Source of the DNA: Thermanaeromonas sp. C210
GTDB lineage: Bacteria; Bacillota; DSM-521; Neomoorellales; Neomoorellaceae
DNA: 64,000 bases
Assembly (NCBI RefSeq): GCF_013167955.1
Contig: NZ_BLWF01000003.1
Location: 310,001 to 374,000, forward strand
Direction: 5' to 3'
The translations under genes were made by a program, and so were the position numbers. Each line of letters begins with the position of its first letter. Position 1 is the stretch's first letter. This document shows positions 20,855 through 53,470 of the stretch, piece after piece. Under the pieces are notes generated by a model. That model was not told where the DNA came from. It made no database searches and worked only from the letters and a program-made list of their open reading frames with translations.

Positions 20855-20871
20855 TTGGCACGAATCTTGCT
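20855..20871 (+). promoter_or_regulatory. Sigma-54 (-24/-12) promoter of module A
   Basis: TTGGCACGAATCTTGCT: the GG of the -24 element and the GC of the -12 element are twelve bases apart, matching TGGCAC-N5-TTGC exactly. Transcription would start near 20883 and run through a 220-base leader into the zinc-ribbon gene and the molybdopterin oxidoreductase. An activator of the right class is encoded at 41036. Confidence 0.85.
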
Positions 20872-21461: not shown

Positions 21462-23702
21462 ATGAGTACCTGCAAGAAGGACTGGACTTGGGAAGAGGAT
21501 GGCTGCACCGTCGTGAGGACCTGCGCATGGTCGCCTCCCGGTTGTCACCCCGTGGGCTGCGGGCTCCGTCTGTATGTAAAGGACAACCGGCTGGTTAAAG
21601 TGGAGGGGGACCCGGAGCATCCCATAAGCCAGGGCAGACTTTGCATCAGGTGCCTCTCCCTTCCTGAATACGTGCACCATCCCCAGAGGATTATCTACCC
21701 CATGAAAAGAGTAGGTGAGCGGGGAGAAAATAAGTGGAAACGTATTTCCTGGGATGAAGCTTGGGACATCATAGTCGATAAAGTTAACGAGATAAAGGAA
21801 AAGTACGGACCGGAGTCCATAGTGGTATACGGCGGGACGGGGAGGCAGGCCTGCCTGTACTACTATCCCCTGGGCTTTGCCGTCCTGGGCACCCCCAACG
21901 TGTGCTATTCTCTGAGCGGTTGGTCCTGCTACGGACCGCGGTGCGCCATCACCCAGTACGTCCTGGGAACCGGTTATCCGGAGATCGACTTCGCGGGGTA
22001 CTATCCCGACCGCTATGACCACCCAGGCTGGAAACTTCCGGAGTGCATAATCATTTGGGGCAAGGATCCCATTAAATCCAACCCCGATGGCCTGTACGGC
22101 CATGCCATCGTGGACATGATGAAGCGGGGCACCAAGATTATCGTGGTGGACCCCAGGCTGACCTGGCTGGCCTCCCGGGCCGAATACTGGCTCCAGCTCA
22201 GACCCGGTACGGACGCTGCCCTTGCCCTGGGTATGCTCCATGTAATAATCAACGAAGGGCTCTACGACGGGGACTTTGTGGAGAAATGGTGCTCAGGATT
22301 TGAAGATCTCAAGCAGCGGGTCCAGGACTACCCGCCCGAGAAGGTGGCGGAAATAACCTGGGTACCGAAGGAGAAAATTGTCGAGGCCGCGAGATTTTTC
22401 GCCCGGAGCAAGCCGGCCAGTATTACCTGGGGCCTGGCGGTGGACGAGAATCCCAACGGCGTCCAGATCGGTCACGCCATCCTGGCCCTGGCGGCCATAA
22501 CCGGCAATATCGACGTGCCGGGCGGGATTACCGTGGGACCGCCGGCTGTACTGCTGGGCAAATGGCGTATAGAAACCAGGATGGAGCTCTCGGACGAGCT
22601 GTGGAACAAGAGGTTGGGGGCGGAGGAATACCCGGCCCTGGCCAATGCCTTGGCCACGACCCATCCCGATATAACCCTCGATGCCCTGGAGACCGGCAAA
22701 CCGTATCCCCTGAAAATGGCCTGGTTCAACAGCACTAACCTCATATCACCTACCAACACCGCTGCGCCGGACAGGTGGTACCGGGCCCTCAAGAATATGG
22801 AGTTCGCCGTAGCCACTGATACCTTTATGACCCCTACGGCCATGGCCTTCGCCGACATATTCCTGCCCCTCTCTACCTTTGCCGAGCACGACGGTATAGT
22901 AGTTACCCACTTCGGACGCAATGCCATATTCGTGGGGGCCATAAACAAGGCCCTGCAGGTCGGAGAATGTAAATCGGATATCGAGATCTGCCTTGAGCTC
23001 GGCAAACGCCTTAATCCGAAGGCGTGGCCCTGGAACGATGTTAAGGAATTCTTTACTGATCAGCTCAAACCCGAGCTGGGCATAACCTTCGACGAGCTGA
23101 AGGAGCGGGTAGTCGTTCACCCGCCCTACGAATACCGGAAGTACGAAACAGGAAAGCTCCGGCCCGATAACGAACCCGGCTTTTTAACTCCCTCGGGTAA
23201 GATCGAACTGTATTCGGTCCTGTTTGAAGCGTGGGGCGACGATCCCTTACCCTACTATGAAGAGCCGCCCTACAGCCCCTACAGCACTCCCGAACTGGCG
23301 CGCGAATATCCCTTCATACTCACCACCGGCGCCAGGCTGTGGGGCATGTTCCACTCGGAGCACCGGCAGATCCGGACCATACGCGAAATACACCCCGATC
23401 CCATTGTGGAGATCCACCCGGAAACCGCAGCCGAACTGGGCATCAAGGACGGGGATTGGGTTTACATTGAGAACATGTACGGCAGGTGCAAACAAAAGGC
23501 TAAACTGACGGTGGGAATTCACCCCAAGGTGATCCATGCCCAGCACGGCTGGTGGTTCCCGGAGAAGGCCGCCGACGAACCCGGCCTATTCGGTGTGTGG
23601 GAGGCCAACGTTAACCTGCTGGTGCCGCACAAGCACATCGGCAGGCTGGGCTTCGGTGCTCCCTTTAAGTGTATCATATGTAAAGTGTACAAAGCCGAGT
23701 AG
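21462..23702 (+). CDS. Molybdopterin oxidoreductase, module A catalytic subunit
   Basis: 746 residues from ATG 21462 (GAAAGAGGGGGAAGTT upstream); the open frame extends further left without family character. DMSO-reductase superfamily: N-terminal [4Fe-4S] domain with unusual spacing CAWSPPGCHPVGC (Cx6Cx4C) and a fourth Cys in GRLCIRC, then YPMKRVGERGENKW, the SGWSCYGPR segment at the Mo-ligand position, VVDPRLTWLASRAEYWLQLR and a C-terminal molydopterin-binding domain (TTGARLWGMFHSEHRQIR; HPETAAELGIKDGDWVYI). No Tat signal, so cytoplasmic. Partner Fe-S protein follows. Substrate unknown; related to polysulfide/thiosulfate reductases, acetylene hydratase and catechol dehydroxylases only at superfamily level. 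Confidence 0.85.
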   Translation: MSTCKKDWTWEEDGCTVVRTCAWSPPGCHPVGCGLRLYVKDNRLVKVEGDPEHPISQGRLCIRCLSLPEYVHHPQRIIYPMKRVGERGENKWKRISWDEAWDIIVDKVNEIKEKYGPESIVVYGGTGRQACLYYYPLGFAVLGTPNVCYSLSGWSCYGPRCAITQYVLGTGYPEIDFAGYYPDRYDHPGWKLPECIIIWGKDPIKSNPDGLYGHAIVDMMKRGTKIIVVDPRLTWLASRAEYWLQLRPGTDAALALGMLHVIINEGLYDGDFVEKWCSGFEDLKQRVQDYPPEKVAEITWVPKEKIVEAARFFARSKPASITWGLAVDENPNGVQIGHAILALAAITGNIDVPGGITVGPPAVLLGKWRIETRMELSDELWNKRLGAEEYPALANALATTHPDITLDALETGKPYPLKMAWFNSTNLISPTNTAAPDRWYRALKNMEFAVATDTFMTPTAMAFADIFLPLSTFAEHDGIVVTHFGRNAIFVGAINKALQVGECKSDIEICLELGKRLNPKAWPWNDVKEFFTDQLKPELGITFDELKERVVVHPPYEYRKYETGKLRPDNEPGFLTPSGKIELYSVLFEAWGDDPLPYYEEPPYSPYSTPELAREYPFILTTGARLWGMFHSEHRQIRTIREIHPDPIVEIHPETAAELGIKDGDWVYIENMYGRCKQKAKLTVGIHPKVIHAQHGWWFPEKAADEPGLFGVWEANVNLLVPHKHIGRLGFGAPFKCIICKVYKAE

Positions 23703-24381: not shown

Positions 24382-26964
24382 ATGTCTGAAAAGGGCTTGA
24401 ATGCTAAAGGAGGCGTCCGAACCTATATTAAGGGACTTGGCCTTTGTGCCTTTGGGGTCGGTGCCAATGCGGCAGAAGTAGACGTAAAGGACGGCAAAAT
24501 CCTTCGCATCCGCCCGCTGCGGTACGATAAAAAATATAAGCCCGAACACATGAACCCCTGGAAAATACAGGCCCGCGGGAAGACCCTTGAACCGACCATG
24601 AAGTCCCTCTTGTCGCCTTTTAACTATGTGTACAAAAAACGGGCCTATTCGCCTAATCGTATTCCTTATCCCTTAAAGAGGGTGGACTGGGACCCTGACG
24701 GCGAGCGCAATCCCCAGAACCGGGGGAAGAGCAAGTTCGTGCGCATCACCTGGGATGAGGCTGCCGAACTGATAGCCAAGGAGCTAAAACGCGTATGCGA
24801 CAAGTACGGTCCGACTGCGGTTCTGGTACAGGGTGATGGCCACGGAGAGACCAAGGCGATTCACGGTCCTCACGGTTGCCAAATACGCTTGATGGAACTG
24901 CTGGGAGGTTACACCATCCAGGCGCGCCAACCGGATAGCTGGGAAGGCTGGTACTGGGGGGCCAAGCACGTCTGGGGGCAGGATCCCGTCGGCCAGGGGA
25001 AACAGACCAACTTAGTAAAGGATATTTCGGAAAACACCCAGATGATGCTTTTCTGGGGTTGTGACCCGGAAACCACTCCCTGGGGTTGGGGCGGACAGCA
25101 GGCCAGCCGCCTATGTTTCTGGTTTAGAGAGCTGGGGATTAAATCAATATATATCTGTCCCGACCTTAACTACGGCGCGGCGGTACACGCAGATAAGTGG
25201 ATACCGGTGCGGCCCAATACAGATGCGGCACTGCAACTGGCCATTGCCTATACCTGGATTACCGAGGATACCTACGACAAGGAGTATGTGGCTACCCATA
25301 CTTACGGCTTTGACGAGTTTAAGAAATACGTCCTCGGCGAAGAAGACGGCATCCCGAAGACTCCTAAGTGGGCAGAAGAGATTTGCGGCGTACCGGCCAG
25401 GGTCATCAAGGCTTTGGCCAGAAAGTGGGCCCGGGAAGCCACGAGCATCGGTCATTGCAATGGCGGATCTTATATTAGGTCCTGCTACGCGACGGAGCCG
25501 GGGCGCCTGGAAATACTCCTCCTGGCCATGCAGGGGCTGGGCAAGCCTGGTCGGGGCCAGCTTAAATTCATTGAGTGGCAGTTGTTTAGCATGCACGAGC
25601 AGAACCCCATGCCTCGCAGTTCAGTTATACCTACTGTTGAGGGCGCCTACCAAGGTTTTGAGTATCCGGTTCCCCAGCAGTTCATTCCCAAGACCCTTAT
25701 ACCCAAGGCCATCCTGAGCGACGAACCCATTACCTGGTACGGTATAACCTATGCCGGGTGGCCCCGGGAGACCCAGTTTGTGCAGTACAAGTATCCCGCC
25801 GACGGTTGTTCGGAGATTCATATGATTTGGAGCGATAGCCCGTGCTGGTCTACCTGCTGGAACGGCGGTAATATGTGGATAGAGGCCCTCCGCAGTCCCA
25901 AGATAGAATGCGTAGTGGTCCAGCATCCATGGATGGAGAACGACTGCCTGTTTGCCGACATCATTTTACCTATTAACACGAAATTTGAAGAAGACGACAT
26001 TGGGGTAGACATATTGAGCGGGAATTTCAATCTCCTTTTCTATGAGGGTCAGTGTATCGAGCCCATTGGCGAATCCAAGAGCGACTACGAAGCAGTGGCG
26101 GAAGTGGCCAAAAAACTCGGCCTCTATGAAGAATATACCCGGGGTAAGAGCGTAGAGGACTTGATCAGGGCCGGGTTCGAGCAGTCCGGGGTAAGTGAGA
26201 TGATAAGCTATGAGGAGTTCCGGCAGAAAGAATATTTTGTAGTGCCCACGGCACCGGACTGGGAAAAGGATGCCCCCGGCTTTAGCGACTTCTACACAGA
26301 CCCGGAAAACAATCCCTTGGACACGCCCACAGGTAAGATCGAATTTTATGCCACCGGTCTGGCCGAGAACTTCCCGGATGATAAGGAGCGTCCGCCGGTG
26401 CCCCATTGGATACCTTACGGGGAGAGCCATCAAGAAAGCCTGCTGCATCCCCGAGCCCAGAAGTATCCTTTCCTTATAGTTTCCAACCATCCCCGGTGGC
26501 GGGTACATGCCCAGCTGGATGACGTACCCTGGCTGCGGGAGATTCCCACCTGCAAGGTTAAGGGGCCCGATGGATATTTATACGAACCTGTGTGGATCAA
26601 TCCGGTGGATGCGGAGAGGTTGGGGATCAAGAGCGGAGACGTGGTCAGGATATATAACGATCGCGGTTGGGTGCTCGGCGGGGCATATGTTACCGAGCGC
26701 ATAATGCCGGGGGTAGTTTATCAGGATCATGGTGCGAGATTGGATCCGATAGTACCCGGTGAAAGTGACCGCGGTGGCGCTAATAACTTGATTTGCCCTA
26801 CTAACACGACCTCCAAAAACTGTGCCGGAGAAGTTACCAGCGGTTACCTTGTAGGCGTAGAAAAGGTGGACATCGAGGAGCTGAAGAAGCAGTATCCGGA
26901 CGCCTTCAACCGGCCCTACGATCCGTACTATGGAGTTCGCCTGGAAGCATGGATTGAGGGGTGA
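24382..26964 (+). CDS. Transhydroxylase-like molybdopterin enzyme, large subunit
   Basis: 860 residues. Strongly resembles the large subunit of Pelobacter pyrogallol-phloroglucinol transhydroxylase (recalled, about 875 residues): ARGKTLEP, RIPYPLKRVDWDPDGERNPQ, QPDSWEGWYWG, ADKWIPVRPNTDAALQLAIA, AYTWITEDTYDKEYVATH and the end motif SDRGGANNLICP. As in that enzyme the N-terminal Fe-S cysteine motif is absent. Asp185-Ser186 match the Asp-Ser pair at the Mo site, and His154 may match the active-site His; the catalytic Tyr region (LDYEFYFPGY in Pelobacter) reads IEWQLFSMHE here and lacks the Tyr by eye. Catechol dehydroxylases are distant relatives. Likely reaction: hydroxyl transfer or dehydroxylation of an aromatic; substrate unknown. 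No Tat signal. Confidence 0.88.
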   Translation: MSEKGLNAKGGVRTYIKGLGLCAFGVGANAAEVDVKDGKILRIRPLRYDKKYKPEHMNPWKIQARGKTLEPTMKSLLSPFNYVYKKRAYSPNRIPYPLKRVDWDPDGERNPQNRGKSKFVRITWDEAAELIAKELKRVCDKYGPTAVLVQGDGHGETKAIHGPHGCQIRLMELLGGYTIQARQPDSWEGWYWGAKHVWGQDPVGQGKQTNLVKDISENTQMMLFWGCDPETTPWGWGGQQASRLCFWFRELGIKSIYICPDLNYGAAVHADKWIPVRPNTDAALQLAIAYTWITEDTYDKEYVATHTYGFDEFKKYVLGEEDGIPKTPKWAEEICGVPARVIKALARKWAREATSIGHCNGGSYIRSCYATEPGRLEILLLAMQGLGKPGRGQLKFIEWQLFSMHEQNPMPRSSVIPTVEGAYQGFEYPVPQQFIPKTLIPKAILSDEPITWYGITYAGWPRETQFVQYKYPADGCSEIHMIWSDSPCWSTCWNGGNMWIEALRSPKIECVVVQHPWMENDCLFADIILPINTKFEEDDIGVDILSGNFNLLFYEGQCIEPIGESKSDYEAVAEVAKKLGLYEEYTRGKSVEDLIRAGFEQSGVSEMISYEEFRQKEYFVVPTAPDWEKDAPGFSDFYTDPENNPLDTPTGKIEFYATGLAENFPDDKERPPVPHWIPYGESHQESLLHPRAQKYPFLIVSNHPRWRVHAQLDDVPWLREIPTCKVKGPDGYLYEPVWINPVDAERLGIKSGDVVRIYNDRGWVLGGAYVTERIMPGVVYQDHGARLDPIVPGESDRGGANNLICPTNTTSKNCAGEVTSGYLVGVEKVDIEELKKQYPDAFNRPYDPYYGVRLEAWIEG

Positions 26965-26970
26965 TCCAGA

Positions 26971-27789
26971 ATGAAGGTATTTGTGATCGATGTGGCCAGG
27001 TGTAACGGGTGCTACAGTTGCCAGTTGGTCTGCAAGGACGAACATGTCGGCAACGATTGGTCGCCCTATGCCAAACCCCAGCCGGATACGGGCCATTTTT
27101 GGATGAAGATAAAGGAGACGGAGCACGGCAGCGTTCCCAAAGTCAAGATTGAATATCGCCCGACGCCCTGCATGCATTGCGACAACGCTCCTTGTATTAA
27201 GGCGGCCGGGGACGGGGCGGTATACAAGAGAAGGGACGGCCTGGTTATTATCGATCCAGAAAAGGCTAAAGGGCGTAAGGATCTGGTGGCGTCCTGCCCC
27301 TACGGCGCTATTTACTGGAATGGGGAATTAAACCTCCCGCAGAAATGCACGGGATGTGCCCACCTGATAGATGCAGGCGAAGTACCCCGCTGCGTAGACG
27401 CTTGCGGGGTGGAAGCCATTAAGTTTGGCGAAGAAGAAGAATTAAGAGGTCTGATCGCCCAGGCTGAGGTTTTACAGCCCGAGATGGGGCTAAAACCCAA
27501 GGTATACTATCTAAACCTCCCCAAATTCTTTGTAGCAGGAGATGTTTATGATCCGGTGCTCGATGAAGTCCTCGAGGGAGCCCAGGTAACCCTCATAAAT
27601 GAGGAAACCGGCCGTACATGGACGGAGACCACGGACGATTTCGGGGACTTCTGGTTCAGGCGCTTAGGACCCGGCAGTTATACCCTTAAGGTTGAGAAGA
27701 ACGGCTACCGCCCCTACATGGTGCAGCAGCTAAAAGTTGATAGGAGCCTTAACGTCGGCAGTATCGGCCTGGAGCGGGCGCAAGGGTGA
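26971..27789 (+). CDS. Transhydroxylase-like Fe-S small subunit with C-terminal beta domain
   Basis: 272 residues, six bases after the large subunit. Twelve cysteines for three [4Fe-4S] clusters: CNGCYSCQLVC, CMHCDNAPC, SCPYG, CTGCAHLIDAGEVPRCVDAC. The spacing, RPTPCMHCDNAPC and GLKPKVYYLNLPKF match the Pelobacter small subunit as I recall it. From about residue 187 a domain GDVYDPVLDEVLEGAQVTL to DDFGDFWFRRLGPGSYTL has the carboxypeptidase-regulatory/Cna-B beta-sandwich pattern, also present in the Pelobacter protein. This shared rare domain strongly supports the assignment. Cytoplasmic. Confidence 0.9.
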   Translation: MKVFVIDVARCNGCYSCQLVCKDEHVGNDWSPYAKPQPDTGHFWMKIKETEHGSVPKVKIEYRPTPCMHCDNAPCIKAAGDGAVYKRRDGLVIIDPEKAKGRKDLVASCPYGAIYWNGELNLPQKCTGCAHLIDAGEVPRCVDACGVEAIKFGEEEELRGLIAQAEVLQPEMGLKPKVYYLNLPKFFVAGDVYDPVLDEVLEGAQVTLINEETGRTWTETTDDFGDFWFRRLGPGSYTLKVEKNGYRPYMVQQLKVDRSLNVGSIGLERAQG

Positions 27790-27843
27790 TGCCTCTGACC
27801 CTTAATCACCTTTAACGGGTCTCTTCGCCCCGCGAGCGGGAAC

Positions 27844-27896
27844 GCCTGGGGGTACCAGGGTAAGCCCTTATTAAAGGGCCACTGGTACCCCCAGGC
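27844..27896. repeat. Long nested stem-loop between small subunit and MFS gene
   Basis: GCCTGGGGGTACCAG (27844-27858) pairs perfectly with 27882-27896; inside, GCCCTT-ATTA-AAGGGC (27864-27879) forms a second perfect hairpin. No T run follows, so it may be a processing or stability element, a rho-type terminator, or a remnant palindromic repeat. I saw no second copy in the window. Confidence 0.75.
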
Positions 27897-28037
27897 TTAC
27901 TAGGGGCCATTCTTGAAACTCCTGGTATTTATAAGAAGCAAGGAACCTGCTAAAAGATGGGGTTGCTCTGTCCCGGGTACAGCATATATATTCTCAGGAA
28001 CTCGGAGAGATATAGCCGCATGAGAGGAGGTCTTGGG

Positions 28038-29222
28038 GTGAAGAGGAAAGCCTGGGCGGTTATGTGGGCGGCCTATCTGGGAGGCGTGGCCGTGGCTATG
28101 AACCAGGTTAAAGTCCCGCCGGTGATGGGAATCCTCATGGAGAGTCTTAACGTAAACATGGCCACGGCCGGATGGCTAATGTCGGTTTTTTCGGTCGCCG
28201 GGGTTATCCTAGCCTTTCCGGCGGCGTTGCTTCTTGCTCGGTGGGGCCCCAAAGTAAGCGGACTAATAGGTCTTGGCTGTTGCATCTTAGGTTCGATCAT
28301 GGGGGCCTTGGCCCAGGGACCGGAGGCCATGCTGGTGGGCAGGGCCATCGAAGGCATAAGCCTGGCCTTAATTGCGGTGGCGGCTCCGGCAGTAATCGGC
28401 GTGTGGTTTGAACCTCAGGAACGGGGATTGCCCATGGGAATCTGGTCCACATGGATGCCCGTGGGAACTTTCCTTATGTATAACGTGGCCAATCCCATGG
28501 AGAAGCTTTGGGGTTGGGCGAGCATCTGGTGGTTTGGAGCCGCCTTTGCCCTGCTGGCATTCATAATGTACGGTGCTGTAGTAACTCTGCCGGATAGAGC
28601 AGAGAGCGTAGACGTGGCCCAGGATAACCTAGGGCTATCCTTAGGTTTAGGCTTAAGAAGCGCCAGCAGCTGGTTACTGGCCTTCTCCTTTACCGGGTTC
28701 AACTTTAGTTTCATAGGTTACGCTACGTGGGCTCCTTTGTTTTGAAACCAGGTGCATAACATAGACCCGACGGCGGCCAGTTTTTATGTCAGCTTAACAA
28801 CATTAGTATGTATACCTGGCGGTATAGTAGCCGGTTGGGTATTGGACCATACGGGAAATCGTAAGGGTGTATTGGCCACAGCCTTCGTGATAGCCGCTAT
28901 CCTGCTCCTTGGAGCCTTCAAATTGGGGAGCAATGTTTTGACCATAGTTCTGTACTTTGTTGCCCTGGGTTTGACCATCAGTTTTATTCCTACCACAATT
29001 TATACTTTGGCACCGGAGACGGTTCCGGATCCGCGCCTGGCCGGGGTGGCTCTGGCTACCCTGGCCTTGGGACAGAATGGTGGCATGCTTCTGGGCCCTC
29101 CTGTAATTGGTCGGGCAGTCGCAGGTGGGAGCTGGGCGGACGGAACCTATCCTATGGTAATCGGCAGTATTGTGGCTCTGATAGCTGCTTTGCTGGTGCG
29201 CACCCGGGCCAAAGGGGAATAG
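28038..29222 (+). pseudogene. MFS transporter interrupted by one in-frame TGA
   Basis: GTG 28038 follows AGGAGG at seven bases. The frame gives a normal-size major facilitator of 394 codons with about twelve hydrophobic segments, but codon 236 is TGA (28743-28745). Sequence on both sides is intact and continuous: SFIGYATWAPLF, stop, NQVHNIDPTAASFYVS, where relatives have an ordinary hydrophobic residue. TTA (Leu) to TGA is one change. Either a recent nonsense mutation, a sequencing error, or recoding. Motif RWGPK in the 2-3 loop and LDHTGNRKG in the 8-9 loop are MFS-typical. Position after the transhydroxylase pair suggests substrate uptake or product export. Confidence 0.8.
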
Positions 29223-29403: not shown

Positions 29404-29419
29404 TGGCATGTTTCTTGCA
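29404..29419 (+). promoter_or_regulatory. Sigma-54 (-24/-12) promoter of module C
   Basis: TGGCATGTTTCTTGCA: GG and GC are twelve bases apart, as required. Predicted start near 29431, about 220 bases before the module C catalytic gene, the same layout as module A. A possible activator site is the imperfect palindrome CCCCTGGCAAGGGG (29339-29352), 80-90 bases upstream of the start. Confidence 0.78.
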
Positions 29420-29653: not shown

Positions 29654-31834
29654 ATGGAGGAACTCAAAAAGGCAGCTTGTTTTTTCTGCCACATGAACTG
29701 CGGGATGCTGGTAAAGGTGGTAGACGGCCGGCCGGTGGCGGTCTACGGCGATCCCGAGCATCCCTTCAACCAGGGAGCCCAGTGCCCCCGTGGGGCATCG
29801 GCTCTGGATCACCTCTATCACCCCAACAGGCTGAACTATCCCCTTAAGAGGGTCGGGGCCCGCGGGGAAGGTCGTTGGCAGAGGATAAGCTGGGAACAGG
29901 CCATTACCGAGATAGCGGCCAAGCTCCAGGAATTGAGGCAGAAATACGGCCCGGAAAGTGTCGCCTCCGCGGGCGGCACGAACCGGACCGACGACTGGGC
30001 GCGGCGGAGGTTTTTCAACCTGTTCGGCAGCCCCAACGTTACCCATACCGCTCCGGTGTGCTGGATACCCAACTTTCTGGTGGAAACCGCCATGTACGGC
30101 TGGAGCGCCTTTGATTCCGAGGTCATGGGCAGCCGGTGCGTGATCGTTTGGGGCCATAATCCTGCCGCCTCCTATCTTCCGGAGATGCGCGCCCTGCTGG
30201 AAGCGAGGCAGAGTAACGGCACGAAAATAATCGTGGTGGATCCCCGCTTGAGTGAGACGGCCGCCAAGGCGGACTTGTGGTTGCCCATCCGTCCGGGAAC
30301 GGACGTGGCCCTGGCTTTGGGCTTCCTGAACGTCATAATAAACGAGGAGCTCTACGACCACGATTTCGTTGAGAACTGGACGGTGGGCTTTGAGGAGCTG
30401 CGGAAACGCGTCCAGGAGTACACCCCGGAGTGGGCCGAGGAAAAGACGGGTGTCCCGGCGGACAAGATCGTCCTGGCAGCCCGCATGTACGCGACCCTCA
30501 AGCCTGCCTGCATCCAATGGGGCGTGGCTACGGACCAGCTTGGCCGGGCCACCAGCGCAGGAGCCCAGGCCCGGGCAACCCTGCGGGCCATCTGCGGCAA
30601 CCTGGATGTACCGGGCGGGGATGTGATGCCCGGTCCCCATCCAACTCTCATAACAGATGTGGAAATGGAGCTGAACGAACTCCTAAGTGAAGAGCAGAGG
30701 GCCAAGCAGCTGGGCAGCGACCGCTTCAAGCTCAACTCCTGGCCGGGTTACCGCCTGCTCCAGGAAAACCTGGTGAGGGTCTGGGGCAAGGGCATACCGG
30801 CCGAGTGGTTCTGCGAAGCCCATCCCCCTACCCTATGGCGGGCCATCAGGTACGGGCAGCCTTACGCCGTTAAGGGGCTTATAGTCCTGGCCGACAACCC
30901 CCTGACTTCCTACGGCAACAGCCGGCTTGTGTATGAGGCCTTAATGGAGCTCGAGCTTTTGGTGGTAATGGACTACTGGGTAACGCCCACGGCCATGCTG
31001 GCTGACTATGTGCTGCCTGCGGCGTCCTGGCTGGAGAGGCCGGTGCTCACCAGCACCTACGGAGTGTCCGATTGGATCATCGCTTCCGAGCGTTCCACGG
31101 CTCCCCTTTTTGAACGTAAGACGGACTATGAATTCTGGCGGGCTTTGGCCCTTAAGTTGGGCCAGGGGGAATACTGGCCGTGGGAAAGCCTGGAGGAAGC
31201 AGCCCTTCACCGGCTGGAGCCCCTGGGTTACGAGCTTACTTCCTATGAAGACTTCGTCCACCAGATAAGATTCGACTTTGCCCCCCGGGAGTACTACAAG
31301 TATCTCAATCAGGGTTTTGCCACGCCTTCAGGCAAGGTAGAGCTTAAGAGCTCCATATTAGAGAAGCTGGGATACGACCCCCTGCCCCATTACGTAGAAC
31401 CCTTGCCTCCTTCCACGAACGCCTCGGAGTACCCCCTGATACTGGTGGCCGGCGGTGGATTTATGCCCTACTTTCACTCCGAGCACCGTCAGATTACCAG
31501 ACTCCGTTTGCTGCATACCGAGCCGAAGGTATCTATTAATCCGGAGACGGCCAAAGAATTGGGTATAAGAGAGGGGGAGTGGGTATGGATCGAAACCGCC
31601 AGGGGTCGGGTGAAACAGAAGGCCTGGCTCACCACCCAGGTACCCTCCGGTGTTATCCAGGCCGAGCGGGGATGGTGGTACCCGGAAAAGGACCCACGGG
31701 AGCCGGTCCTCTACGGGGTTTGGGAGTCCAACATTAACGTATGCGTAGACGACGAACCGGACACCTGCGACCCGTTATGCGGGAGCTGGTGCACCCGGTC
31801 TATACCCTGCCGGGTGTACCGGGTAGAGGGGTGA
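29654..31834 (+). CDS. Molybdopterin oxidoreductase, module C catalytic subunit
   Basis: 726 residues. N-terminal [4Fe-4S] motif CFFCHMNC (Cx2Cx3C) with a fourth Cys in AQCPRG; YPLKRVGARGEGRW; PVCWIPNF places a Cys at the usual Mo-ligand position; VVDPRLSETAAKADLWLPIR; C-terminal pterin domain with FHSEHRQITR and a Cys-rich tail (CDPLCGSWCTRSIPC). Closest in feel to the PhsA/PsrA and acetylene hydratase branch; the residue next to the second cluster Cys is His, not the Asp essential in acetylene hydratase, so that function is unlikely. No Tat signal, so it would face the cytoplasm. Followed by four-cluster Fe-S and NrfD subunits. Confidence 0.86.
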   Translation: MEELKKAACFFCHMNCGMLVKVVDGRPVAVYGDPEHPFNQGAQCPRGASALDHLYHPNRLNYPLKRVGARGEGRWQRISWEQAITEIAAKLQELRQKYGPESVASAGGTNRTDDWARRRFFNLFGSPNVTHTAPVCWIPNFLVETAMYGWSAFDSEVMGSRCVIVWGHNPAASYLPEMRALLEARQSNGTKIIVVDPRLSETAAKADLWLPIRPGTDVALALGFLNVIINEELYDHDFVENWTVGFEELRKRVQEYTPEWAEEKTGVPADKIVLAARMYATLKPACIQWGVATDQLGRATSAGAQARATLRAICGNLDVPGGDVMPGPHPTLITDVEMELNELLSEEQRAKQLGSDRFKLNSWPGYRLLQENLVRVWGKGIPAEWFCEAHPPTLWRAIRYGQPYAVKGLIVLADNPLTSYGNSRLVYEALMELELLVVMDYWVTPTAMLADYVLPAASWLERPVLTSTYGVSDWIIASERSTAPLFERKTDYEFWRALALKLGQGEYWPWESLEEAALHRLEPLGYELTSYEDFVHQIRFDFAPREYYKYLNQGFATPSGKVELKSSILEKLGYDPLPHYVEPLPPSTNASEYPLILVAGGGFMPYFHSEHRQITRLRLLHTEPKVSINPETAKELGIREGEWVWIETARGRVKQKAWLTTQVPSGVIQAERGWWYPEKDPREPVLYGVWESNINVCVDDEPDTCDPLCGSWCTRSIPCRVYRVEG

Positions 31835-32382
31835 TGAAGTTGCAGTGGGGTATGGTGATTGACCTTCGCCGGTGCGTCGGCTGCCACGCCTGCACCGTGG
31901 CGTGCCAGATAGAGAACGGGCTGGAGCTGCAGGAGAGATGGAACAAGGTATTTAAGGTGGGGCCGGAGGGGCACTTCCCCTACCTCACCTATTACAATTT
32001 CACCGCTGCCTGCATGCACTGTCAGGAAGCCCCCTGTGTTGAGGGGTGCCCGACGGGCGCCAGCAGAAGGGAAGACAACGGCATTGTGGTGGTCGATGAG
32101 ACTCGATGTATAGGCTGCAAATTCTGCGTTCTCGTGTGCCCCTATGAGGCCAGGAGATTTGACCATAAGAGGGGCGTAGTGCGCAAGTGCACTCTGTGTA
32201 TTGAACGGCTCAACAACGGGCAACTTCCCCGGTGCGTCGAAACCTGCCAGCTAAAGGCCAGGCATGTGGGGGATCTTGATGACCCCGAGGGTGAGGTGGT
32301 GCAGTTGATACGCAGGGAAAACGCCCAACCCCTTTTTCCTCACCTGGGTACGAAGCCTTCGGTCTATTATATAGTCCCGTAG
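31834..32382 (+). CDS. Four-cluster Fe-S electron-transfer subunit (PhsB/DmsB type)
   Basis: 182 residues from ATG 31834, which overlaps the upstream stop codon (GTG 31831 is also possible). Four complete cysteine groups for [4Fe-4S] clusters: CVGCHACTVAC, CMHCQEAPCVEGCPTGA, CIGCKFCVLVCPYEA, CTLCIERLNNGQLPRCVETC. Carries electrons between the molybdopterin subunit and the membrane subunit encoded next. No signal peptide. Confidence 0.93.
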   Translation: MKLQWGMVIDLRRCVGCHACTVACQIENGLELQERWNKVFKVGPEGHFPYLTYYNFTAACMHCQEAPCVEGCPTGASRREDNGIVVVDETRCIGCKFCVLVCPYEARRFDHKRGVVRKCTLCIERLNNGQLPRCVETCQLKARHVGDLDDPEGEVVQLIRRENAQPLFPHLGTKPSVYYIVP

Positions 32383-32396
32383 GGGGTTCATAGGTC

Positions 32397-33335
32397 ATGG
32401 AAAGGCGTCAAAGGATATGGGGTTCTTTGGCCGTCGGGTACTTCTTTTTGGCTTCCGTGGGCGCCGGTTGTCTGATAACAGGCTTAATCTTAGATTGGTG
32501 GTGGGCCTTCCCGGAGGATGGAAGGCCACCGGAATGGCTCGGCCTCTGCGGGCTGGTGCTGGCCGGAACGGGCGGGATGCTCTTGCTGGCCGAACTGGGC
32601 CAAAAAATGCGGTTTCCTATGGTTTTCCTGCGGCCGCGTTCGGTCATGTCCCTAGGCGCATGGGCCCTGGGAGCTTTTCTTCTGTTTTCCTTTGCCTATT
32701 TCCTCGCCGGCCTGGTGTTCCCCGGGTGGGGAGGGCTCCGGATGGTGGCCGGTGCAGGCGGATGCATCGCCGCCGTGGTCCTGGTGGTTTATCCCGGGTT
32801 GGAACTGGGAGAGGCTAGGGGCAGGCCCTTCTGGCAGCCGGCCGGGTTGGTCCCTCTATGGGTGGTGAGTTCTGCCGTAGGCGGCGTGGCCGTTGGCGGT
32901 CTGGTGGTTGCCGCCCTGGACGGCCCTTATGCTGCCTTGCTCTCCGCCCTCCAGGCATGGGGGTTATTCTTGAGCGTTTTGCAGTTGATCTTTGCGGCCG
33001 GCTACGTGCTGGGAATGCTGAGGAGCGGCGTTCGGGAGGCCAGGGAAAGTGCAGAAATGCTGGTCCGCGGCCCGCTGAAGGCATGGTTCTGGGGCGGCCT
33101 AATTTTCCTGGGACACGTTATCCCGTGGATCCTCCTCGTAACCCCCGCGGCCGGATGGGCGTGGGCCTTCTTCCTCGTGGGTGTGCTGGGGCTGCGCCAT
33201 GTAGTGGTGGCGGCGGGTTTGTCCCTGGCTCTGCCGGGGAACCGGCATGAATACCCGGAGGAGGAAGAACTGGCTTCCTGGGCCGCTAGACTGGAAGAGG
33301 CCTGGGCGCGGCAGTCGCAGACCTTGAATTTATAG
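32397..33335 (+). CDS. NrfD/PsrC-family quinone-interacting membrane subunit
   Basis: 312 residues with eight or so hydrophobic helices, beginning GSLAVGYFFLASVGAGCLITG, the typical NrfD/PsrC first helix. Anchors the Fe-S and molybdopterin subunits and exchanges electrons with menaquinone. The polar tail from about 285 is cytoplasmic. Third gene of module C, 14 bases after the Fe-S gene. Family is clear; whether it is quinol-oxidising or quinone-reducing is unknown. Confidence 0.88.
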   Translation: MERRQRIWGSLAVGYFFLASVGAGCLITGLILDWWWAFPEDGRPPEWLGLCGLVLAGTGGMLLLAELGQKMRFPMVFLRPRSVMSLGAWALGAFLLFSFAYFLAGLVFPGWGGLRMVAGAGGCIAAVVLVVYPGLELGEARGRPFWQPAGLVPLWVVSSAVGGVAVGGLVVAALDGPYAALLSALQAWGLFLSVLQLIFAAGYVLGMLRSGVREARESAEMLVRGPLKAWFWGGLIFLGHVIPWILLVTPAAGWAWAFFLVGVLGLRHVVVAAGLSLALPGNRHEYPEEEELASWAARLEEAWARQSQTLNL

Positions 33336-41035: not shown

Positions 41036-43213
41036 ATGAAATCTTTAGAGAATCTTTTGAGTTGTGTATCCCTGACCACGTCTCGCCTCTCCCGAGCTCG
41101 TATTTCCCTGCTGAAAGAAACGGTCAGGAAACAGCGCGATTTGGCCGAACAAATCCGCCGACTAAAACATGAGGTGGTATACCGGGGCGCCGAGGATTGC
41201 GACCTTTCCCTGGTGCGGGCCGAAGTTGTACGGTCTTGGATACGGTCCAAGAAGTACGGCCTCGAAACTTCGTGCTTCTACTATGGCCCGGTCCTGGAAA
41301 ACAGCGTGCTACGGGGGCTGCTGGAAGAGAAGAGACTGCTCCTTAAGGCCGCGGACGGGTACTTGGAACGGCTGGTCGAGATGTTTTCTAACCGCCGCTC
41401 TTCGGTGCTCTTGTCCGACGAAAATGGTATTATGCTGCGAGTACTGCACAGCGAGGACGGGTCGACTAGAAGAAGGATAAGGGAAAGACTGCGGCTGGTT
41501 CCCGGCTCGGTGTGGACCGAAGCCACAGTAGGAACTTGCTCCCACGTCCTGTGTACCCTTCACCAAGAGCCCATCCAGTTATGGGGACCCGAGCACTACA
41601 GTGACGTGGGGTGGGACCAGATTACGTGTTCCTCGGCACCCATTTTCGACGCTGCCGGGAACCTGGCGGGCACCCTCAGCATCGGCGCTGACTGCTACCT
41701 GCGCCAGAATCCCTACGCCTTGGGTATGGCGATCTCCGCGGCCTGGGCCATTCAAAACCGCCTCCAGAACCTGGAGAGGACCGAACAGCGATCCTTCCTG
41801 GAAAAGGCGGAGAGCGGCCTCCAGGCCTATTTCATAACTAACAGGCAGGGCGTCATTACCCAGGCTAACGATAAAGCCCGTGCGGTGCTGGTGGGGGTTG
41901 GTAAGGAGCTGGTAGGCCAGCCCTTCGAGGTTTTACTGGGAAAGCAGCCGGTTATCGAAGCGGTTCTCCAACGCGGGGAAGCCTTTGAAGACGTGGAGTT
42001 GAGGCTGGAAGAGTCTGACCGGGTGCTGGCAGGTTGCTCTGCTTTACCCATAAAGGACGGGGCGGGGAAAATATACGGTTGTCTGGTTACCCTCGGGGGC
42101 GCGAAGCAAAACGGCAGGCGAACCGGTATTCCGGAAACCCGGAGGGACAGTGGGACTTCCGGCATGGCCTGGGTGCTTAAAGATCGGGAGAATGGTTCCG
42201 GCTTTGAATCCCTAGTGGGCAGCTCGCCCGCCCTGCTCCAGACCATAGAGGTTAGCCGCAAGGCTGCCCTCAGCAGTGCGAATATTCTGCTCCAAGGCGA
42301 GAGCGGAGTGGGCAAGGAAGTTTTCGCCCGCTGCATCCACAACCTCAGCCGACCGTGGGGGCCTTTTGTGGCCGTTAATTGTGCCGCCCTTCCCAAGAGC
42401 CTCATAGAAAGCGAACTTTTCGGGTATGAGGGTGGAGCCTTTACCGGCGCGGATCGCAAGGGGCGGCCCGGAAAAATCGAGCTGGCCCACGGGGGCACTC
42501 TGTTCTTGGACGAAATAAGTGATATGCCCCTGGAGATCCAGCCGGTCCTGCTGCGGGTATTGGAAGAGAAGCAATTTATGCGTGTGGGCGGTAGCCGCCC
42601 CGTACGGGTTGATTTCCGGCTGATCGCGGCGACCAACAGGGACCTGTTGGAGCTCACCCGGAAGCAGGAGTTTAGATTGGATCTGTACTACAGGATTGCG
42701 GTATTTAAAATAATCATTCCCCCTCTCCGGGAACGGGGCCTGGACATCCTTGAACTGGCCAGGTATTTTATAATGGCCATCGCCCGCAGGGAGGGGCTCC
42801 CGGCACCGGCTCTGAGCAGGGAAGCAGAAGAGATTTTGCTAACCTACGACTGGCCCGGCAACGTAAGGCAACTGGAGAACGCCATGCTCTACGCGATGAC
42901 CATGTGCAGGAGGGGGATAATTTATCCGGAGGACCTGCCGGCGGAGATTCGAGAGGGGGGGAGGACGGAGGACGGCGGCTCCGTCGGCGGGAGGCCGGGG
43001 ATGGTAATTGGTGCCGGCGGTTCCGGGGAAGACCAGGCGGCGGAGAAAGCCCTGGAGGTAAGACCCCTACCCATGAAGGAACTCGAAAAGAGGGCCATTA
43101 AGCAGGCCCTGGCCCAGACGAACTACAACGTGCGCAAGGCGGCGGCCCTTTTGGGTTTGGGCCAATCTACCTTGTACCGCAAGATCCGGGACTACAATCT
43201 CTCCAAGGGATAG
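41036..43213 (+). CDS. Sigma-54-dependent transcriptional activator (GAF-PAS-AAA-Fis)
   Basis: 725 residues. N-terminal GAF-like sensor region about 100-245, as in AcoR-type activators; PAS domain about 255-355; AAA+ domain about 393-625 with Walker A GESGVGKE (421-428), the sigma-54 contact GAFTGA (467-472), Walker B GGTLFLDEIS and the arginine-finger region; Fis-type HTH at the end (NVRKAAALLGLGQSTLYRKI). A Gly-rich linker (about 635-670) precedes the HTH. Only sigma-54 activator in the window, and the two sigma-54 promoters lie about 20 and 12 kb upstream. The signal is probably a small molecule bound by the GAF or PAS domain. Confidence 0.93.
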   Translation: MKSLENLLSCVSLTTSRLSRARISLLKETVRKQRDLAEQIRRLKHEVVYRGAEDCDLSLVRAEVVRSWIRSKKYGLETSCFYYGPVLENSVLRGLLEEKRLLLKAADGYLERLVEMFSNRRSSVLLSDENGIMLRVLHSEDGSTRRRIRERLRLVPGSVWTEATVGTCSHVLCTLHQEPIQLWGPEHYSDVGWDQITCSSAPIFDAAGNLAGTLSIGADCYLRQNPYALGMAISAAWAIQNRLQNLERTEQRSFLEKAESGLQAYFITNRQGVITQANDKARAVLVGVGKELVGQPFEVLLGKQPVIEAVLQRGEAFEDVELRLEESDRVLAGCSALPIKDGAGKIYGCLVTLGGAKQNGRRTGIPETRRDSGTSGMAWVLKDRENGSGFESLVGSSPALLQTIEVSRKAALSSANILLQGESGVGKEVFARCIHNLSRPWGPFVAVNCAALPKSLIESELFGYEGGAFTGADRKGRPGKIELAHGGTLFLDEISDMPLEIQPVLLRVLEEKQFMRVGGSRPVRVDFRLIAATNRDLLELTRKQEFRLDLYYRIAVFKIIIPPLRERGLDILELARYFIMAIARREGLPAPALSREAEEILLTYDWPGNVRQLENAMLYAMTMCRRGIIYPEDLPAEIREGGRTEDGGSVGGRPGMVIGAGGSGEDQAAEKALEVRPLPMKELEKRAIKQALAQTNYNVRKAAALLGLGQSTLYRKIRDYNLSKG

Positions 43214-45104: not shown

Positions 45105-45219
45105 ACTCTTATCGAGAGTGGTGGAGGGACTGGCCCGATGAAACCCGGCAACCTGCTCCTGAAGGTCAGGGGTAAAGGTGCCAATTCCTGCAGGGCGTTT
45201 TGCTCTGAGAGATAAGAGG
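45105..45219 (+). promoter_or_regulatory. SAM-I (S-box) riboswitch
   Basis: Contains the conserved S-box core: CTTATCGAGAGTGGTGGAGG, then GACTGGCCCGATGAAACCCG, GGCAACC, GGTGCCAATTCCTGC and the closing GAGAGATAAG. P1 forms between CTCTTATC (45106-45113) and GATAAGAG (45211-45218). When SAM binds, P1 holds and the terminator downstream forms; without SAM, GATAAG can pair with CTTATC (45238-45243) in the terminator. Controls metY and metX. Confidence 0.96.
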
Positions 45220-53123: not shown

Positions 53124-53320
53124 AGCCACAACTTACCTACTAGGGGACGAGTTAAGCTGCCTGACGGCAGCGAGGGGAAGTCAGTGAGATTCTGACGCGG
53201 TCCCGCCACTGTGACAGGGAGCGAGCCCACAAACTAAAGACTAAAGAGCCACTGGGCCTTGGCCTGGGAAGGCGTGGGCAAGCGAGGAACTGGAGCCAGG
53301 AGACCCGCTCGTTCCCGTAT
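53124..53320 (+). promoter_or_regulatory. Cobalamin (AdoCbl) riboswitch
   Basis: The conserved core is plain: GCGGTCCCGCCACTGTGA near 53197-53214, preceded by GGGAAGTCAGTGAGATTCTG, and the B12 box GCCAGGAGACC near 53295-53305. Directly upstream of cbiM, so it shuts off cobalt uptake when cobalamin is plentiful. The expression platform is the terminator at 53471. Confidence 0.95.
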
Positions 53321-53470
53321 GGTACCATATCCCTACGGCGGATAGGGGGTGGTGCGGGTTAGCTACCTTCCGTGATCATGTAGGGCGGAAGGTTTTAATT
53401 TTATTTGGGAGGAAAGCCCTCAAAACTTAAACGGGGTGCCTAGTTGGCAGGTAAGGAGGGCTCGCCTAAG

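Follow-up and report, generated by a model that had tools for sequence, protein, structure and literature searches.

What reaction is catalysed by an enzyme that keeps the architecture of pyrogallol transhydroxylase (TH) but has lost residues of its substrate pocket? This question is raised by a two-gene unit in a 64,000-nucleotide stretch of the genome of Thermanaeromonas sp. C210 (contig NZ_BLWF01000003.1, positions 310,001 to 374,000), referred to below as the window. An earlier interpretation of the letters, here called the sequence-only reading, had described the unit as a TH-like molybdoenzyme of a thermophilic clostridium, involved with aromatic hydroxyl groups and accompanied by its own transporter. 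The present analysis points to a sigma-54-controlled cytoplasmic enzyme, predicted to remove reductively (or, less likely, to transfer) an aryl hydroxyl from demethylated lignin-type phenols, an assignment to which a probability of about 0.4 is attached. The aromatic-hydroxyl context is supported by the genomic neighbours, and a thermophilic host agrees with the family of this genome, which also includes the thermophile Moorella stamsii.

The likeness to TH holds for both subunits, in sequence as well as in predicted structure. The large subunit gene encodes a full-length protein of 860 amino acids and is followed after 6 bp by the gene of an equally full-length small subunit of 272 amino acids. 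In a phmmer search of all PDB sequences, the top match of the large subunit was TH of Pelobacter acidigallici (4v4c_A, E 3e-147), with dimethyl sulfoxide (DMSO) reductase as the runner-up (E 8e-82) and acetylene hydratase (2e7z) at E 4e-18; the small subunit matched 4v4c_B best (E 1e-66). The AlphaFold2 model of the large subunit (predicted local distance difference test 87.7, predicted template-modelling score 0.89) again retrieved 4v4c_A first in Foldseek (E 6e-77, template-modelling score 0.86), and that of the small subunit 4v4c_B (E 1e-30). The next structural neighbours of the large subunit are the DMSO and trimethylamine N-oxide (TMAO) reductases; VIA-align gave Z 37.9 for 4v4c_A (798 residues, root-mean-square deviation 2.3) and Z 39.5 for TorA (746 residues, 2.6).

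Domain content follows the same pattern. Pfam detected the transhydroxylase-specific AhtL-like domain 1 (PF21423) in the large subunit and no Fe4S4 domain PF04879, which is present in both flanking molybdoenzymes; the expected lack of N-terminal Fe-S cysteines is thereby confirmed. The small subunit, as had also been anticipated, carries 12 cluster cysteines, invariant in 14 relatives, and a CarboxypepD_reg-like beta domain at its C-terminus that is well predicted in the model. TH itself shares the two-subunit build (about 875 and 274 amino acids), the fold, the missing N-terminal Fe-S motif, the His-Asp-Ser set at Mo and the 12-Cys subunit with its beta domain. It differs in having only about 39% identity to the window large subunit, which is 81-87% identical to its close relatives. 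The Azoarcus resorcinol hydroxylase RhL and the 3,5-dihydroxybenzoate hydroxylase DbhL are two-subunit enzymes as well. A small subunit from a Clostridiales Family XIII member of the clade (L107:4613-5461) has additional cysteines, CxxCxxCxxxCP, which could represent the restoration of a fourth cluster lost in TH.

The active site combines strict conservation with consistent loss. H154, D185 and S186 of the large subunit align with H144, D174 and S175 of TH and are invariant across 82 clade members, in agreement with the Asp-Ser pair proposed for the Mo site. On the other hand, Tyr152, Tyr404 and the Cys557-Tyr560 loop (TH numbering) are gone in 82/82 clade members, including the window protein, while all 12 PgtL-type proteins keep Tyr152, Tyr404 and Tyr560; the alignment near Tyr404 is gappy. 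The roles of Tyr152, Tyr404 and Cys557/Tyr560 in the TH pocket reportedly come from the TH crystal structure of Messerschmidt (2004). The sequence-only reading had suspected a replacement of the catalytic Tyr, and the loss extends to Tyr152 and the loop. The clade has invariant residues of its own, among them D485, P487, W493, H306 and H783, with C492 nearly invariant. As read from these alignments, the substrate pocket is altered relative to that of TH.

A maximum-likelihood tree, built from 37 sequences without TorA and with DmsA-type enzymes as the root, places these differences in an evolutionary frame. Two sister clades emerge, each with 100/100 support: that of the window protein, and the PgtL clade, which contains TH and also the homologues L112 and L113 from proteobacterial plasmids. 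Because of this separate position and the lost pocket residues, the window protein is not a member of the TH family proper. The Dms/Tor group is ruled out for the large subunit, since the tree joins it to the PgtL clade and not to the DmsA-type outgroup, and TH is its best sequence match. The catechol-dehydroxylase lineage is ruled out by the E-values given above for TH and 2e7z, and is a possible home for the upstream gene pair instead. A placement inside another characterised family had been named as a possible refutation; by the tree, the enzyme belongs to no characterised family and is part of its own clade, sister to that of TH.

This clade is widespread. Its named members include Moorella stamsii (87% identity), Sporomusa acidovorans and S. 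silvacetica (72-73%) and, in the gut Eggerthellaceae, species of Gordonibacter, Raoultibacter, Adlercreutzia and Ellagibacter (57-65%), with at least four paralogues in Raoultibacter timonensis. Metagenome-assembled genomes (MAGs) of Chloroflexi, Spirochaetes and Desulfobacteraceae also contribute members. In a class-level survey, a TH-like gene of the clade was found in 3/22 genomes, and a fourth matching genome (G013) carries PgtL-type copies instead. Among gut bacteria that metabolise plant polyphenols, the family is common.

The placement bears on current annotation. Wells et al. grouped RhL with PgtL in one RhL/PgtL family (PMC10100899), and passages of three other papers annotate "pyrogallol hydroxytransferase" homologues in Desulfitobacterium and Chloroflexi genomes (PMC3306737, PMC3971608, PMC4959651). 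These homologues probably include members of the window-protein clade; the passages concerned transfer the transhydroxylase name and do not describe a split into two clades with differing pockets. For gut, sediment and acetogen genomes, many such annotations probably misstate the reaction, because the pocket and the genomic setting of this clade differ. Gordonibacter-type catechol dehydroxylases (Dodh, Cldh, Gp Hcdh, Eadh1/2) are cytoplasmic two-subunit enzymes with bis-molybdopterin guanine dinucleotide (bis-MGD) and Fe-S clusters, often encoded beside major facilitator superfamily (MFS) genes (PMC7028382, PMC12771579), and are related to acetylene hydratase (PMC7028382, PMC11585353, PMC11887054). 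Unlike them, the window large subunit is nearest to TH. The suggested catechol-dehydroxylase likeness consequently does not hold for the enzyme itself, which stands outside that lineage, but it probably does for the pair directly upstream, whose architecture and tree position agree with it.

In the proposed mechanism, Ser186 would ligate Mo, with His154 and Asp185 alongside, and a catechol- or pyrogallol-type phenol, such as the O-demethylation product of a methoxylated aromatic, would be bound in a pocket unlike that of TH. One hydroxyl oxygen would be taken by Mo(IV), matching the second TH half-reaction, and Mo would be re-reduced via three small-subunit [4Fe-4S] clusters. The net reductive dehydroxylation would serve as an electron sink, with expression induced through a sigma-54 activator. 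Reductive dehydroxylation is judged likeliest because it equals one TH half-reaction, employs the conserved Fe-S subunit and suits carriers that have no phloroglucinol lyase. If true, it would be a second bis-MGD route for aromatic hydroxyl removal in anaerobes, extending past the gut Coriobacteriia, the group credited with catechol dehydroxylases (PMC12771579), and would offer a fate for the catechols left by O-demethylating acetogens. A wider proposal is more tentative: the clade may form a second, independent lineage of Mo-dependent aryl dehydroxylases, derived from the transhydroxylase rather than the acetylene-hydratase branch, acting under sigma-54 control as an electron sink for demethylated lignin phenols in thermophilic acetogen relatives, with an expansion in those gut Eggerthellaceae that metabolise polyphenols.

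An enzyme that still transfers hydroxyl groups, isomerising another polyphenol with a cosubstrate and without net redox change, is less likely; TH as the closest known relative and the retained His-Asp-Ser triad speak for it, the loss of Tyr152, Tyr404 and the Cys557-Tyr560 loop against it. Genomic context cuts both ways. Phloroglucinol catabolism involves a triacetate lyase of the BKACE family (PMC10470551). A genome search did not find this enzyme in the window genome, and it is missing from 11/17 carrier genomes checked, among them the window genome and all six Eggerthellaceae; a supply role in phloroglucinol catabolism can therefore not hold for the clade in general. BKACE is present in the PgtL-type-bearing genomes G013, G053 and G111 and absent in G031, which has both types. 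The search for a ring-cleavage pathway in the window genome covered the BKACE and cyclase families, and the latter yielded one protein, about 31% identical to DPGC-like proteins. Several observations weigh against dehydroxylation as the preferred reading. Clade members occur in phloroglucinol-pathway clusters (L086, from a Spirochaetes MAG, and L024); in that MAG and in G031 they lie inside or beside the pathway genes. In the Spirochaetes MAG, the clade member is the sole member of the transhydroxylase superclade seen beside genes for SDR (PGR-like), cyclase (DPGC-like), 3HCDH (TfD-like) and BKACE (TAL-like) proteins. With clade members amid such genes in this MAG and in G031, hydroxyl transfer fits as well. 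Moreover, it is precisely around the Mo site (residues 185-192 and 361-368) that the model has low confidence, and in the fetched loci the density of catechol-dehydroxylase-like (CDH-like) genes at 0-3 kb from clade members does not exceed that at 3-9 kb (ratio 1.06, P 0.55). Because this test gave no enrichment, a strong CDH linkage across the whole clade was dropped.

The remaining explanations are less probable. A non-phenolic substrate, such as an S-oxide or N-oxide, with only the ancestry from the transhydroxylase/DMSO reductase branch retained, would accord with the replaced pocket residues and the closeness of the DMSO/TMAO reductases in structure; it is distinctly improbable given the recurring aromatic-metabolism neighbours of the clade, namely UbiD/UbiX (L036, L052), phloroglucinol clusters, O-demethylase-type genes and PgtL-type paralogues. 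An aryl hydroxylase adding a water-derived hydroxyl and passing electrons to a carrier, as RhL does, is even harder to favour: the two-subunit Fe-S build suits electron export and RhL is a known redox-active relative, but the carrier comes from an anaerobic family and the two families searched reveal no evident ring-cleavage pathway. Least probable of all is ongoing decay of the unit in this strain, with the enzyme pair as a recent leftover beside an already broken transporter. The in-frame TGA in the MFS gene is its support; both enzyme genes are intact, however, with all catalytic and Fe-S residues kept and the sigma-54 promoter undamaged, the large subunit has the high identity to close relatives noted above, and the TGA could be a sequencing error. 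As a separate observation, PgtL-type genes lie in phloroglucinol-pathway-like clusters with SDR and TRAP transporter genes in two Firmicutes (L024:11999-14518, with a cyclase, and L025:6574-9087, with BKACE), one of which (G013) is from the genus group of Moorella stamsii.

Regulation by sigma-54 is indicated by two perfect consensus sites in the window, where 0.05 would be expected; at least two occurred in 0/300 Markov simulations. Both are intergenic, one ahead of each molybdoenzyme operon, and rpoN is present in the genome. Sites of this type also precede the TH-like gene or the MFS gene in a Moorella relative, Sporomusa silvacetica and a Peptococcaceae MAG (L021, L031, L032), and sigma-54 activators adjoin the TH-like loci in L021 and L029-L032. 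The activator encoded in the window, a candidate for control of the TH-like operon, has 35-38% identity to its counterparts at the TH-like loci of named relatives and 53% to one near CDH-like genes of M. stamsii. No molybdenum cofactor riboswitch or other known leader RNA was found ahead of the operon at Rfam gathering scores.

Table 1. Coordinates of the TH-like unit and its neighbours in the window
Feature	Position	Strand	Evidence
Sigma-54-type promoter TGGCACGAATCTTGCT, before CDH-like/TH-like genes	20856..20871	+	perfect consensus match
Acetylene-hydratase/Gordonibacter-type CDH-like catalytic subunit, 746 aa, N-terminal Fe4S4 domain	21462..23702	+	
Small 4Fe-4S partner of CDH-like subunit, 113 aa	23827..24168	+	41-61% identity to ~110 aa Fe-S proteins beside Gordonibacter-type enzymes
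TH-like large subunit, Mo-bisMGD, without N-terminal Fe-S motif, H154/D185/S186	24382..26964	+	sequence, Pfam, tree, AlphaFold2/Foldseek
TH-like small subunit, 12 Cys (three putative [4Fe-4S]) and C-terminal beta domain	26971..27789	+	PDB search, Pfam, AlphaFold2/Foldseek
Hairpin, 15-bp arms, between small subunit and MFS genes, without T-run, single copy in genome	27844..27896	+	
MFS transporter gene, broken by TGA	28020..29222	+	stop at 28743-28745
Sigma-54-type promoter TGGCATGTTTCTTGCA, before downstream operon	29404..29419	+	perfect consensus match
Second acetylene-hydratase-like molybdoenzyme, 726 aa, neighbouring operon	29654..31834	+	2e7z E 1e-141
Fe-S subunit, downstream operon	31741..32382	+	Pfam
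NrfD-like membrane subunit, downstream operon	32397..33335	+	Pfam
Sigma-54 activator, candidate regulator, 12 kb away	41036..43213	+	homology

The CDH-like pair, the downstream operon and the sigma-54 promoters before both operons had been passed over in the sequence-only reading. The CDH-like pair lies directly upstream of the TH-like pair, with 213 bp between them, and co-transcription of the two is plausible. Its catalytic subunit has 2e7z as the closest solved structure (E 1e-103) and shares 43-52% identity with Gordonibacter and Eggerthellaceae molybdoenzymes of mostly 740-770 amino acids, being nested in a clade of such two-subunit enzymes that consists, among the sequences compared, of homologues and no characterised enzyme. 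The pair matches the published two-subunit architecture of Gordonibacter-type catechol dehydroxylases. In G012, a genome of the same family assembled as one contig, 92% and 89% homologues of the pair are followed by a DASS-type transporter, a sigma-54 activator and an acetylene-hydratase-like operon. As the TH-like genes are missing from this same locus, the unit they form resembles an exchangeable module. M. stamsii has two CDH-like genes, in the vicinity of a sigma-54 activator and of genes for URO-D methyltransferase-like and corrinoid-like proteins.

The transporter attributed to the enzyme is indeed an adjacent gene but not an intact one. A single in-frame TGA interrupts an otherwise open frame; it may reflect a recently acquired nonsense mutation or an error in the sequence. 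In the closest relatives the MFS gene next to the TH-like pair is intact (60-63% identity) and encodes a hydrophobic residue in place of the TGA. Across the fetched loci, MFS genes are slightly enriched within 4 kb of clade members (22 vs 7, P 0.013), but not at 3 kb (P 0.11).

The downstream acetylene-hydratase-like operon is kept beside the TH-like gene in two relatives of the genus Moorella, and its molybdoenzyme is 78% identical to the M. stamsii copy that adjoins the TH-like gene there. In a Moorella relative (G008), the TH-like unit comes after corrinoid O-demethylase-type genes, and the window genome encodes an 81% homologue of the O-demethylase-type methyltransferase of that locus. Elsewhere in the window, an S-adenosylmethionine riboswitch (45106-45218) and a cobalamin riboswitch (53132-53326) each stand ahead of metabolic or transport genes.

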